Source: Candidatus Binatia bacterium
GTDB taxonomy: Bacteria > Vulcanimicrobiota > Vulcanimicrobiia > Vulcanimicrobiales > Vulcanimicrobiaceae
Direction: 5' to 3'
DNA length: 64,000 bases
Assembly (NCBI GenBank): GCA_035541935.1
Contig: DATKMJ010000021.1
Location: 1-64,000, forward strand
The stretch's first letter is position 1, and each line of letters opens with the position of its first letter. Below, piece after piece: positions 17,018 through 63,208 of this stretch. The notes under the pieces were generated by a model, which ran no database searches, was not told where the DNA came from, and was given only the letters and a program-made list of their open reading frames with translations. The position numbers and the translations under genes were made by a program.

Positions 17018-17031
17018 TCGTTGCGTTCCGT

Positions 17032-17270
17032 CCTTCGACTTCGCTGCGCCCTTCGACTACGCTCAGGGTGACACGGGGGTTGCGCCCTTCGACTTCGCTG
17101 CGCCCTTCGACTCCGCTCAGGGTGACACGGGGTTGCGCCCTTCGACTCCGCTCAGGGTGACACGCACGGCCCTTCGACTCCGCTCAGGGTGACACGGGGT
17201 TGCGCCCTTCGACTACGCTCAGGGTGACACGGGGGGCCCTTCGACTTCGCTCAGGGTGACACGGGGGGTT
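17032..17270. repeat. Tandem array of CTTCGACtmcGCTCAGGGTGACACGG repeats
   Basis: Six full and two truncated copies of a roughly 30-nt unit, consensus CCCTTCGACTCCGCTCAGGG followed by TGACACGGGG, occur at about 32-36 nt spacing. They fill the space between the MDR gene and the convergent lipoprotein gene. Positions 10-12 vary (ACTACG, ACTTCG, ACTCCG). CCCT and AGGG at the ends are complementary, so each copy can form a weak hairpin. No unique spacers separate the copies, which rules out CRISPR. The same unit occurs at 22963, 30592 and 46953. Confidence 0.93.
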
Positions 17271-22396: not shown

Positions 22397-25133
22397 CTTC
22401 AACGCGCTCGCTACGCTGCGCGCCGGCGAGCGGACGTACCGGTATTTTCGCCTCGGCGCGCTCGAGGATGCCGGCGTCGCGAAGCTCGCGCGGCTCCCCT
22501 TCTCACTGCGGATCCTCCTCGAGAACCTGCTGCGCTTCGAAGACGGGCGGATCGTGCGTGCGGCGGACGTCGAGGCGCTCGCAAAATGGAACGCCCACGC
22601 GCGCCACGAGCGCGAGATCGCCTTCAATCCCGCGCGCGTCCTCCTCCAGGATTTCACCGGCGTGCCGTGCGTCGTGGATCTCGCGGCGATGCGCGACGCG
22701 ATGGCGGATCTCGACGGCGATCCGAAGATCATCAATCCGCTCCAGCCGGTCGAGTTGGTCATCGATCACTCGGTGCAAGCCGATTACTTCGGCACGAGCG
22801 ACGCGCTCGCGAAGAACACCGACCTCGAGTTCGAACGCAATCGCGAGCGGTACGCGTTTCTGAAGTGGGGGCAATCCGCGCTCGCGGGGTTGCGCGTCGT
22901 TCCGCCCGGAACGGGCATCGTCCATCAGGTCAACATCGAGTATCTCGCGCGCGTCGTCTTCGCCCTTCGACAGGCTCAGGGTGACACGGATGCGGCTCAG
23001 GGTGACACGGAGCTTGCGTATCCCGACACCGCGGTTGGAACCGACTCGCACACGACGATGGTCAACGGGCTCGGCGTGCTCGCGTGGGGCGTCGGCGGCA
23101 TCGAGGCCGAGGCGGCGATGCTCGGCCAGCCGGTAACGATGCTGATTCCCGACGTCGTCGGCTTCCGGCTCGACGGCGCGCTGCGCGAAGGCGTGACCGC
23201 GACCGATCTTGTGCTGACCGTTGCCGAGATGCTGCGGCGCAAGGGCGTCGTCGGCAAGTTCGTCGAGTTTTACGGCGCCGGTCTCTCGGCGCTTCCCGTC
23301 GTCGATCGCACGACGATCAGCAACATGTCGCCGGAGTTCGGCTCGACCGTCGCGATCTTCCCGATCGACGACCGGACGCTCGAGTATCTGCGCCTGACCG
23401 GCCGCTCTCCCGAGCGGATCGCGCTCGTCGAGGCGTACGCGAAGGCGCAGGGCCTCTTTCGAACCGACGCGTCGCCGGATCCCGAGTTTGCCGACACGCT
23501 CGCGCTCGATCTCGGCAGCGTCGAGCCGAGTCTGGCGGGGCCGCGCCGTCCGCAGGACCGCGTACCGCTCCACGGCGTCAAGCACTCCTTCGAGAAGGCG
23601 ATGGGCGAATGGGTCGCGGCGCGCGAACGCGCCAACGGCGCCGTCTCGCGCTTCGAGGACGAAGGCGGCGGCGGCACCGCGACGATCGCGCCGGCGATGG
23701 ACGAGGTGGACGACGGCTGCGTCGTCATCGCCGCGATCACGAGCTGCACGAACACGTCGAATCCGTCGGTGCTGATCGGCGCGGGACTGCTCGCGCGCAA
23801 CGCGCTGGCGCGCGGATTGCGAACGCAGCCGTGGGTGAAGACCTCGCTTGCCCCGGGCTCCAAAGTCGTCACCGATTATCTCGCGAAGGCCGGCCTGCAG
23901 AGCGATCTCGACCGGCTCGGCTTCAACCTCGTCGGCTACGGCTGCACGACCTGCATCGGAAACTCCGGTCCGCTTCCCAGCGACATCGCCGAAGCGGTCG
24001 CCGACGGCGATCTCATCGTCGCGGCGGTGCTCTCGGGCAATCGCAATTTCGAAGGGCGCATCCACCCGCAGGTTCGCGCGAACTATCTCGCGTCGCCGCC
24101 GCTCGTCGTCGCCTACGCGCTGGCCGGACGCATTGACGTGGATCTCACGACGCAGCCGCTCGGCACCGGCAGCGACGGCAAGCCGGTCTATCTGCGAGAG
24201 ATCTGGCCGACCAACGACGCAATCGCGACGACGATGGCCGCGTGCATCAACGGCGAGATGTTCGAACGCGAGTACGCCGACGTCTTCAAAGGCGATGCGA
24301 ACTGGGGAGAACTGAACGTCGCGCCGAGCGAACGCTACGCCTGGGATCCGAAATCCGAGTACGTGAAGCGCCCGCCGTACTTCGACGGAATGCCCGAGGA
24401 GCCGGGGCCGCCGCAGGACGTGCGCGGCGCGCGCGCGATCGCGGTGTTAGGCGATTCGGTGACGACCGACCACATCTCGCCCGCCGGAAGCATCGCGCGC
24501 AACGGCCCGGCCGGCAAGTATCTGATGGAGCACGGCATCGAACCGCGCGATTTCAATTCATACGGCGCGCGCCGCGGCAACCACGAGGTGATGGTCCGCG
24601 GCACCTTCGCGAACGTCCGGCTGCGCAACGCGCTCGTGCCCGGCGTCGAGGGCGGCGTCACGCGCTACCTGCCAACCGGGGAGCAGATGCCGATCTTCGA
24701 CGCCTCGCGCCGCTACGAAGCCGACGGCACGCCGCTGATCGTGCTCGCCGGCAAAGAGTACGGCTCCGGCTCGTCGCGCGACTGGGCCGCCAAGGGCCCG
24801 TATCTCCTCGGCATCAAAGCCGTGATCGCCGAATCGTTCGAGCGCATCCACCGCAGCAACCTCATCGGCATGGGCGTGCTCCCGCTCGAATACCTCGACG
24901 GTGCCGACCGCTCGACGTACGGACTAAACGGCGAGGAGGTCTACGATATCACCGGCTTGACGGGCGGCGTGCGCCACGGCATGCGCGCGCACGTGCGCGC
25001 AACCGATCCGCAAAGCGGCCGCGCGATCGAGTTCGACGCGCGCGTCCGGATCGACACGCCGAACGAAGCCGAGTACTATCGCCACGGCGGCATTCTCCAG
25101 TACGTGCTCCGCCAGCTAAAAGACAGACGCTAG
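22377..25133 (+). CDS. acnA: Aconitate hydratase A
   Basis: A 918-residue aconitase of the AcnA/IRP type, interconverting citrate and isocitrate in the TCA cycle. Fe-S ligands are C457 (TSCTNTSNP), C523 and C526 (GCTTCIG). [13 protein letters not shown] and [13 protein letters not shown] are canonical active-site segments. Between residues about 196 and 211 a 16-codon stretch is made of the genomic repeat (RQAQGDTD and AAQGDTE), replacing or lengthening a surface loop before [11 protein letters not shown]. The reading frame is preserved, so the enzyme is probably still active. Start ATG at 22377 lies inside the end of rnd. Confidence 0.96.
22963..23010. repeat. Repeat unit embedded in frame within acnA
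   Basis: CCCTTCGACAGGCTCAGG plus GTGACACGG, followed by a second truncated copy (GCTCAGGGTGACACGG), belong to the same family as the array at 17032-17270. The 48-nt stretch is a multiple of three and encodes part of the loop before the YPDT motif of aconitase. Confidence 0.88.
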
Positions 25134-30591: not shown

Positions 30592-30676
30592 CCCTTCGAC
30601 ACGCCCTTCGACAGGCTCAGGGTGACACGGCGGGCATGGCTCAGGGTGACACGGCCGGCCCGGCTCAGGATGACAA
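30592..30676. repeat. Repeat units between aceE and the thiC riboswitch
   Basis: CCCTTCGACACG (partial), then CCCTTCGACAGGCTCAGG plus GTGACACGG, then two truncated copies (GGCTCAGGGTGACACGG and CGGCTCAGGATGACA) lie in the divergent intergenic region. They belong to the family of the 17032-17270 array and occupy the area where the aceE and thiC promoters would be expected. Confidence 0.9.
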
Positions 30677-46743: not shown

Positions 46744-48833
46744 GTCGCGCTCCGTTCGAGAACGCAGAGCTCCTCCTCGACGGAGAGCGACCAGCCGGGA
46801 GCGACGTAGGTCGTGCTGTCGTACGCCTCGACGACCGCGGGCCCGGCGATGCTCGTGCCCGATCCCAGCGAGGCGCGCTCGAAGACGGCAACCTCGACGA
46901 AGGAGTCCTCGATCCATACGTCGCGTCGCGCCGGGGGCCGTCCTCCACCTCGTCCTTCGACTCCGCTCAGGATGACAGTCGAAGGAGCGCGAGTCGAAGC
47001 GCGGGTCCGCGCGAAGGCCGTGAGCCGCGCGTTGACGATCTCGACGGCCGCGTCGACGACGTCGTAGCCGTAACGCGCGCGGTGCGCATCGTGGAAGTTC
47101 TGCGCGACCCGTTGCGGCGACCGGTCGTGCGCGATCGTCAGCTCGAAACTCTGACCGCGATAGCGCGCGTCGTACTCCCGGCGGAACGCGATCGTCGCCG
47201 GATCGGCGCCCTGTGCGGCGAGGCCCGCACTCGCGCGCCGCTCGCCGGCGGCAAAATGCTCCTCGATCCGGTCGCCGTCGAGATCGGCGGCGCCGCGCAT
47301 GATCGCCGCGAGCTCGTTGTGACGGAGGTCGGCCTCGAGCAGGCCGCTCGCGGAGAAGAGCCCCGGATGCGCCGGGATCGCGACCCGCGCGACGCCGAGC
47401 TCGCCGGCGAGCGCGCACGCGTGCAGCGGTCCGCCGCCTCCGAACGCGACGAGCGTAAAGTCGCGCGGATCGAGACCGCGCTCGACCGTGACGATCCTCA
47501 ACACTCTCGCCATCGCGTCGTCCACGATCCGCACGATGCCGGCGGCCGTCGCCTCGAGGCCCATCTCGAGACGTCGCGCGAGCTCTTCGATGGAACGTCG
47601 CGCGCGCGCCGCATCGATCGGAAAGGTGCCGCCGAGCAGATGGTGCGGGTTGAGGCGCCCCAGCACGACGTTTGCGTCGGTGACCGTCGCGCGATCCGAG
47701 ATGCCGTAACATGCCGGGCCGGGCTGCGCCCCCGCGGAGATCGGCCCGACGCGCAGCGAGCCCGCGTCGTCAATCCACGCAATCGTTCCGCCGCCGGCGC
47801 TGACCTCGGCCAGGTCCACGAACGGAAAGCGCACCGGATAGCCGCTGCCTTTGACCGCGCGCCCGCTGTGCGTTCTGCCGGCCGCCTCGAACTCGCCCGC
47901 GACCTGCGGGATGCCGTCGAGTATCGCGCCTGCCTTCGCGGTGGTTCCGCCCATGTCGAACGAGAGCACGCGCCGTGCGCCGGTCGCGCGGCCGAGCGCG
48001 GCGGCCGCGATCGCCCCGCTCGCCGGGCCGCTTTCGACGAGCGCCGCGGGCCGCGCGAGCGCGTGCGTCGCGGCGGCCATGCCGCCATCGCTGCGCATCA
48101 CGTAGAGCGGCGAGGCGACGCCTCTCGCGCGCAGCTCCTCGATCAGCCGTTCGAGATATCCTTCGACGATCGGCGCGAGCGCGGCGTTGACGACCGTCGT
48201 CGAGCAGCGCTCGTACTCGCGATACTGCGGATCTATCTCCGAGGAGCGCGCGACTCGCGCGCGCGGAAGCGCCGTTGCGATCGCCTCGGCGAGCGCGCGC
48301 TCGTGCGCGTCGTTGACGTACGAGTGGAGCAGGCAGATCGCGACCGCGGCTATGCCGCGCGCGGCCAGTTCGCCGCAGGCGCGCGCGATCTCACCTCGTT
48401 CGAGCGCCACGAGCACTTTTCCGCGATGGTCGACGCGCTCCGCGACGACGATACGGTCTTCGCGGGCGACGAGCGGGCGCGGCCGCTCGACGAAGAGATT
48501 GTAGACCTCGCTGCGGTTCTGACGCCCGATCTCGATGACGTCGCGAAACCCCCGCGTCGTCACGAGCGCGACGCGCGGCAGCTCGAGCCCTAATTGCCCG
48601 AGCAGCGCGTTCGTCGCGATCGTCGTCGAGTGCGCGAGGAACTCGACGGCCGGCGCGTCGCCGTAACCGTCGAGGAGCGCGGCGAGCGCGTCGACGACCG
48701 CGCGATGCGGCTCCGCGGGCGTGCTCGCGACTTTCCGGGTGAGCCGCTCTCCGCTCCAGGATTCGACGGCGACGAGATCGGTGAACGTGCCGCCGACGTC
48801 GATTCCGACGCGCAGGACGCGCCGCTGGCTCAT
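46740..48833 (-). CDS. hyuA: Hydantoinase/oxoprolinase A-type ATPase subunit
   Basis: A 697-residue HyuA of the acetate/sugar-kinase superfamily. The N-terminal phosphate motif is VGIDVGGTFTDLV; AHSTTIATNALL, SFDMGGTTAKAG and VAFGGGGPLHACALA are the other ATP-site signatures. Near residues 616-627, part of a genomic repeat encodes STVILSGVEGRG in a loop of the C-terminal domain without breaking the frame. ATG at 48833. It forms an operon with hyuB; the gene order A then B is usual. Confidence 0.92.
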   Translation of the reverse strand: MSQRRVLRVGIDVGGTFTDLVAVESWSGERLTRKVASTPAEPHRAVVDALAALLDGYGDAPAVEFLAHSTTIATNALLGQLGLELPRVALVTTRGFRDVIEIGRQNRSEVYNLFVERPRPLVAREDRIVVAERVDHRGKVLVALERGEIARACGELAARGIAAVAICLLHSYVNDAHERALAEAIATALPRARVARSSEIDPQYREYERCSTTVVNAALAPIVEGYLERLIEELRARGVASPLYVMRSDGGMAAATHALARPAALVESGPASGAIAAAALGRATGARRVLSFDMGGTTAKAGAILDGIPQVAGEFEAAGRTHSGRAVKGSGYPVRFPFVDLAEVSAGGGTIAWIDDAGSLRVGPISAGAQPGPACYGISDRATVTDANVVLGRLNPHHLLGGTFPIDAARARRSIEELARRLEMGLEATAAGIVRIVDDAMARVLRIVTVERGLDPRDFTLVAFGGGGPLHACALAGELGVARVAIPAHPGLFSASGLLEADLRHNELAAIMRGAADLDGDRIEEHFAAGERRASAGLAAQGADPATIAFRREYDARYRGQSFELTIAHDRSPQRVAQNFHDAHRARYGYDVVDAAVEIVNARLTAFARTRASTRAPSTVILSGVEGRGGGRPPARRDVWIEDSFVEVAVFERASLGSGTSIAGPAVVEAYDSTTYVAPGWSLSVEEELCVLERSAT
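46953..46986. repeat. Repeat unit embedded in frame within hyuA
   Basis: TCCTTCGACTCCGCTCAGG plus ATGACAG is followed by TCGAAGGA, which is complementary to the opening TCCTTCGA. The whole element can thus form a hairpin. It belongs to the same repeat family as the 17032 array. Confidence 0.88.
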
Positions 48834-62272: not shown

Positions 62273-63208
62273 ATGAAACAGCTCTGTTTGTTGATGGCCA
62301 TTCTCTTTGCGCTCTCGCCGGCGCTCGCTTCGGCCCAGCGCGGCGGCGGCGGCCGGGGCGGCGGCGGAATGCGCGGCGGCGGCGGAGGGCGTCCCTCGGG
62401 CGGCATGTCGCGTCCTTCGGGCGGCGGTGCGCGTCCGTCGAGCGGCGCGCGTCCATCCGGCGGCGCCCGTCCATCCGGCGGCGCGTCGCGACCCTCGAGT
62501 GGCGGCGGATTTAATCTCGGCCACGACACCGGACGCGCACCGACGACGCGACCCGCCGGCGGCGCTTCGCGCCCGTCGGGCGGTAACGCCGGCGGCAATC
62601 GCGGCAACGGTAATCTCAGCAACGGCAACCGCGGCAACGGCAACGCCGGCAACGGCAATCGCGGAAACGGTAACCGCGGCAACGGCAACGCCGGCAACGG
62701 CAATCGCGGTAACGGCAACATCGCAAACGGCAACCGCGGCAACGGTAACGCGAGCGGCAACCGCGGCAACGGAAACAACATCAACAGCGGTAACCGCAAC
62801 ACGAATATCAACAACAACGTCAACCGCAACACCACAGTGATCAACAACCCGGTCTACGGCGGCGGCGGCGCGTGGGGCTGGAACCACGGCGCGGCCTGGT
62901 ATCCGGCCGGCGGCTATTGGGGCGGAGGCTTCTGGGGCGCGATGGCGATCGGCGTAACGTCGGCCGCCGTCTACGGCGCGGTCGTCGGGGCGAACAACGT
63001 CACCTACAACTCCTACCAAGTGCAATCGGGAACCCCGGGCTACACGTTCCTGCAGAACTACCAACTGGTCCAGGTGCAGTGCGGCCCGCCGAATCTCGTC
63101 GTCGTCTACGGTCCGGAGAACAGCGTGATCTGCGCGAACCCGAATAATCTCGTCGGGGCAGGCAACTACAACCTCGACACGCAGACGCTCTCGCTGACTC
63201 CGATGTAA
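62273..63208 (+). CDS. Secreted Gly/Asn-rich repeat protein
   Basis: A 311-residue exported protein. A signal peptide (MKQLCLLMAILFALSPALASAQ) is followed by Gly/Arg-rich and RPSGG repeats (about residues 23-105), then roughly ten tandem GNGNRGNGNAGN-type units (about 103-165), an Asn-rich stretch and a Trp/Gly-rich putative membrane-interacting segment (WYPAGGYWGGGFWGAMAIG). The C-terminal 60 residues hold a compact two-Cys domain (QCGPPNLVVVYGPENSVICAN). It is probably a surface or matrix protein. Codon repeats follow the protein repeats. Confidence 0.75.
   Translation: MKQLCLLMAILFALSPALASAQRGGGGRGGGGMRGGGGGRPSGGMSRPSGGGARPSSGARPSGGARPSGGASRPSSGGGFNLGHDTGRAPTTRPAGGASRPSGGNAGGNRGNGNLSNGNRGNGNAGNGNRGNGNRGNGNAGNGNRGNGNIANGNRGNGNASGNRGNGNNINSGNRNTNINNNVNRNTTVINNPVYGGGGAWGWNHGAAWYPAGGYWGGGFWGAMAIGVTSAAVYGAVVGANNVTYNSYQVQSGTPGYTFLQNYQLVQVQCGPPNLVVVYGPENSVICANPNNLVGAGNYNLDTQTLSLTPM

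Follow-up and report, generated by a model that had tools for sequence, protein, structure and literature searches.

Short REP-like hairpin repeats as the likely cognate sites of a small GIY-YIG nuclease whose genes they flank

The short hairpin repeats dispersed through this genome resemble REP elements, and we think it likely that a dedicated GIY-YIG nuclease has them as its cognate sites, and would nick them and lead to their copying. The repeats make up a family with a covarying structure, they flank the nuclease gene in a constant outward orientation, their abundance correlates with the presence of that gene, and the repeat type follows the nuclease tree. We infer recognition, single-strand nicking, and copying of the repeats by the nuclease. 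Because the repeats flank its genes in a fixed outward orientation, both here and in many bacteria, the nuclease is the best candidate for spreading or using the repeat.

The repeats are present in numbers far above chance. We searched the genome (Candidatus Eremiobacterota-type, 2.41 Mb in 71 contigs) for the 20-mer CCCTTCGACTNCGCTCAGGG, allowing up to two mismatches, and found 182 copies, 83 on the forward strand and 99 on the reverse, compared to none for a reversed-pattern control. An earlier note on the window (the whole stretch of 64,000 nucleotides that was analysed) had proposed a dense interspersed family and a genome-wide count as a check; the count upholds the proposal and is not at the level of chance. 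Within the window, CTTCGACTCCGCTCAGGG was found seven times at up to three mismatches, where shuffled sequence would give 0.18. The genome also had 20 exact copies of a sister type, CCTTCGACARGCTCAGG, whose middle is two letters long. Contigs C3, C5, C12, C16, C43, C48, C70, and C71 end in or within ~150 bp of repeat arrays, indicating that the arrays break the assembly, and since several contigs end inside arrays, the true copy number is probably higher than that counted.

The four loci in the window, all on the + strand, contain two sister types of the repeat. The first locus (17031-17266) is flanked by two convergent genes, whose ends as called are 33 nt and 23 nt away, and contains six full units of the form CCCTTCGACT[A/C/T]CGCTCAGGGTGACA and two head fragments. 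One head fragment, GTCCTTCGACTTCGCTGCG (the unit without CAGGGTGACA; 17031..17048), is followed at 17049..17266 by an array of the 25-nt full units, CCCTTCGACTNCGCTCAGGGTGACA, that begin at 17049, 17103, 17138, 17170, 17205, and 17237, with the second head fragment at 17085. The units are head to tail and their starts are 32-54 nt apart. The copies in acnA (22963) and upstream from thiC (30604) are of the sister type, CCCTTCGACAGGCTCAGGGTGACA, with extra tail fragments, GGCTCAGGGTGACACGG. The locus upstream from thiC (30592..30676) is between an aceE-type gene on the minus strand and thiC on the plus strand, and has one AG-type unit (30604-30628) with one head fragment on its 5' side and two tail fragments on its 3' side. 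The fourth locus is in hyuA. The array and three more loci described previously were thus all found, but the single common unit attributed to them was not, as the copies in acnA and before thiC are of the sister type. There was no Rfam match within the window, and the exact repeat strings had no match in the literature searched. Tandem repeats unrelated to this family (GGCGGCGG-rich and CGGCAACCGCGGCAA units) are present at 62342-62848 of the window.

The copies inside acnA and hyuA preserve the reading frame. An alignment of orthologues identified a 51-nt in-frame insert of 17 residues in acnA (22962..23012, + strand) that consists of one AG-type unit, CCCTTCGACAGGCTCAGGGTGACA, and a tail fragment. 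The in-frame copy in hyuA, a hydantoinase-A-type gene on the minus strand, is TCCTTCGACTCCGCTCAGGATGACA (46953..46977, + strand) and reads VILSGVEGR. Both reading frames are open through their copies, confirming the earlier claim for these two genes. Comparison with relatives, which is between species too far apart to fix the exact insertion boundaries, revealed that the same variable loops hold other copies, in either orientation, or none. At the acnA loop, three orthologues (L208, L217, L218) had nothing extra, one (L206) had a unit in the same orientation as here, and two (L210, L219) had a unit in the opposite orientation. The C-terminal variable loop of hyuA had differing copies in L229, L230, L238, and others, and none in some relatives. 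All of the copies in relatives were frame-preserving, and relatives in which acnA or hyuA holds a copy have the family elsewhere in the genome too, contrary to the possibility, raised in the earlier note, of lone in-frame sequences. The copies are independent insertions that reached permissive sites more than once, or that turn over there.

The units have a short stem that is backed by covariation. On the other strand, the unit reads TGTCA-CCCT-GAGCGNAGTCGA-AGGG, in which a short covarying Watson-Crick stem encloses an invariant GAG...CGA core. Among copies near nuclease genes, to which the test was confined (a looser definition of the core let in too many chance matches), stem pairs 3 and 4 were paired in 82% and 78% of copies, compared to 38% and 36% after shuffling. 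The stem with this backing is 4-5 bp (CCCT/AGGG here) around a 12-nt core. The predicted folding energy of single units was no better than that of shuffled sequence. We considered a GNA-triloop and sheared G-A pairing of the core, which would fit the invariant letters.

Two genes of one GIY-YIG subfamily in this genome are flanked by outward-pointing repeats. These genes are outside the window and were missed in the earlier note, which had left the mechanism of spread open; they now provide a specific candidate. One (G000:C33, 32195-32494) encodes a protein of 100 residues and is between repeats of the TNC type, and the second (G000:C6, 19210-19476) has sister-type (A[A/G]) repeats pointing outward on both sides. 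A genome-wide search with PF01541 gave four matches, of which the third is a UPF0213-like gene that no repeats flank and the fourth, a long open frame, was taken as UvrC. The catalytic residues Y7, Y17, G19, R27, H31, and E65 are conserved among 125 proteins. The predicted fold of the nuclease (pLDDT 92.8) best matched solved UPF0213 GIY-YIG proteins, followed by Slx1, and the UPF0213 proteins (PDB 1zg2, 1ywl) are the nearest solved structures by both sequence and fold.

Gene-flanking repeats are also a feature of GTAG REPs, which flank the gene for a RAYT transposase, a single-strand nuclease that is thought to move them. The repeats described here similarly flank a gene for a putative single-strand nuclease that may move them, and are like REPs in size, hairpin design, location at gene ends, and copies within genes. 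They could in principle be ordinary REP/BIME elements moved by a RAYT (an IS200/IS605-like tyrosine transposase), and we regard this as very improbable: a search of this genome with PF01797 (Y1_Tnp) gave no match, whereas the same search was positive in E. coli; there is no GTAG tag outside the hairpin; and the flanked gene encodes a GIY-YIG protein, an unrelated enzyme fold.

The association of the repeats with the nuclease gene extends across the phylum. We searched 149 genomes of the phylum and found 56 loci of the nuclease subfamily and 16 UPF0213-type loci. Outward copies were present within 400 bp on both sides at 43 of the 56 subfamily loci, on at least one side at 52, and on neither side at four; several of the loci without both flanks are cut by contig ends. 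In contrast, none of the 16 UPF0213-type GIY-YIG loci had outward copies on both sides, and these paralogues, unlike the subfamily, are not repeat-flanked. Copies that flank the nuclease gene in the phylum were outward in 106 cases and inward in 17 (binomial p ~7e-17).

Repeat abundance and repeat type varied with the nuclease. Counting exact or near-exact copies within the bacterial family, the median was 26 in the 50 genomes with the gene versus 1 in the 49 without it (p = 3e-8; p = 4e-7 with the genus excluded), and the loop type (TNC or A[A/G]) changed 7 times on the protein tree versus 13.1 times when shuffled (at most 1 in 500 shuffles was as low), with shared ancestry inflating both the abundance and the tree statistics. 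Copy number per species ranged from 0 to 235. Nine genomes of the family without a full match to the gene still had at least 17 copies (for example, G120, G122, and G051), which loss of the gene or incomplete bins may explain. Within the genus, the genomic contexts of the nuclease gene number at least five; where contexts are shared, the gene was inverted relative to the same neighbours in about half of them. These arrangements are consistent with recombination between the inverted flanks, and with old paralogues having often moved or been lost. Cases of inversion are L051/L079, L057/L062/L063, and L073/L107 versus L080/L105.

The same design is found in other phyla. Scanning 84,980 species genomes yielded 80 nuclease loci, including Bradyrhizobium, Sphingomonas, Nocardioides, Dokdonia, TM6, and Nitrospinae records. 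The two flanks shared an exact inverted match of at least 13 bp at 40 of 76 loci, compared to 11 of 304 control placements, and the strict motif X5-TCGA-...-CTC-X5' was present in the outward orientation at 45 of 72 loci, compared to 2 of 360 control placements. The flank sequences vary by lineage and have in common the design stem-TCGA-...-CTC-stem', with fully compensated stems (ATCCT/AGGAT, ATGGT/ACCAT, TGGTT/AACCA, GGGCT/AGCCC, and AGTTC/GAACT). The tail of the flank was present in 40 copies in a Bradyrhizobium genome and 59 in an Ancylobacter genome. All eight of the close pairs in Bradyrhizobium were outward; seven were 106-132 bp apart and the one that holds the gene was 448 bp. The gene-less pairs (in G149 and G150, the L144 and L138 records) look like internal-deletion forms of the pair that holds the gene.

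Intergenic arrays were enriched between convergent genes. Using a simple codon-based gene caller, we found that 10 of the 19 classified intergenic arrays in this genome were between convergent genes, compared to 15 of 93 background gaps (p = 0.001). This enrichment, and arrays that look as if they had grown by slippage, favor the view that the units are passive sequences, either transcription terminators or palindromes that arose by chance, spread by slippage and gene conversion, with the nuclease gene merely one landing site. We consider that view improbable. The copies at the nuclease gene in the phylum are mostly outward, copies are absent at the sister UPF0213 genes, the design recurs with unrelated stems in other phyla and hardly ever in random placements, and the units do not have the stability of terminators. 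Within genes, three repeat clusters were in the direction of the gene and three were against it. Several pairs of arrays in this genome diverge, pointing away from each other, and a probable tRNA gene is between two divergent arrays at ~9340-9396 of L033.

Part of the placement data also fits a role in DNA uptake. The Ssn proteins are reportedly a single-strand-specific GIY-YIG family, and the corresponding repeat in Neisseria is called NTS; Ssn is said to nick NTS sites and to have a role in transformation. By that precedent, the repeat and nuclease could modulate uptake and not be mobile: incoming single-stranded DNA would be cut at the repeats during natural transformation, and the repeats would be kept because they shape import. 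The intergenic repeats are at 3' ends of genes, with the TGACA end toward the 3' end of a gene in 16 of the 19 classified arrays, as this explanation would have it. On its own it leaves unexplained the in-frame insertions in acnA and hyuA, the head-to-tail arrays, and the large swings in copy number, and we view it as possible but doubtful.

Returning to the nuclease as the agent of copying, and by analogy to Ssn and NTS, the enzyme would bind and nick the repeat in single-stranded form, and repair or recombination at nicked sites would copy units elsewhere and lengthen arrays. Units without a gene, being copied in this way, would be passive satellites of the nuclease cassette, and units would persist at the 3' ends of genes and in protein loops that tolerate them, since they do little harm there. 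The likeness to Ssn/NTS lies in a small GIY-YIG protein whose catalytic residues are intact and a cognate short repeat in many genomic copies; the differences are that the gene itself is between outward repeats and that there are head-to-tail arrays. By this likeness, the system is probably a phylum-wide case of the Ssn/NTS kind, to which the cassette architecture and the stem covariation would be additions. If this account of Ssn/NTS does not hold, the finding is more novel. No relevant paper tying GIY-YIG proteins to REP, dRS3, or Ssn was found in the literature searched.

We suggest, tentatively, that the nuclease gene and its outward repeats might be an autonomous mobile unit, the GIY-YIG counterpart of RAYT and REP, with gene-less repeats copied after single-strand nicking. 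If so, it would represent a class that has yet to be described in these terms and would supply the missing enzyme of CGTC-like REPs. A survey of CGTC-tagged REPs concluded that this class has no dedicated enzyme, and described a stem of 8-9 bp starting with A-T pairs, a loop of 4-5 nt, an unpaired tail that is mostly CCA, and a predominance of HH dimers, with HT dimers and clusters rare (Di Nocera et al. 2013, PMC3733652). Like those REPs, the repeats here have a CGTC/TGTC-type tag by the hairpin (each unit is followed by TGACA, which reads TGTCA in the hairpin strand), have copies within genes, and occur in many phyla, and the Bradyrhizobium and Ancylobacter relatives form outward dimers. Unlike those REPs, they have a short stem (4-5 bp) around a GAG...CGA core, although the alphaproteobacterial relatives do have ATCCT/AGGAT; there is no constant tail, nor CCA, before CCCTTCGAC; the arrays in this genome are head to tail; and a dedicated enzyme is proposed.

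Environmental genomes commonly contain such repeats, which interrupt assemblies and burden proteins with junk peptides. Position, orientation, covarying stems, and co-variation of type here tie one enzyme subfamily to them in different phyla, a paralogue serving as the internal negative control, and the question of how they spread can now be reduced to an oligonucleotide cleavage assay.

One related genome (G042) had an uneven distribution of the sister-type repeat. There were 80 forward and 30 reverse copies on contig C1 (2.79 Mb), and there was no clear GC skew on which to base a replication-strand bias. Among the matches listed, which comprise all of the forward copies and the first of the reverse ones, the copies were dense at 2.5-2.8 Mb, near a GIY-YIG gene (at 2,520,508) that contains one stop codon.
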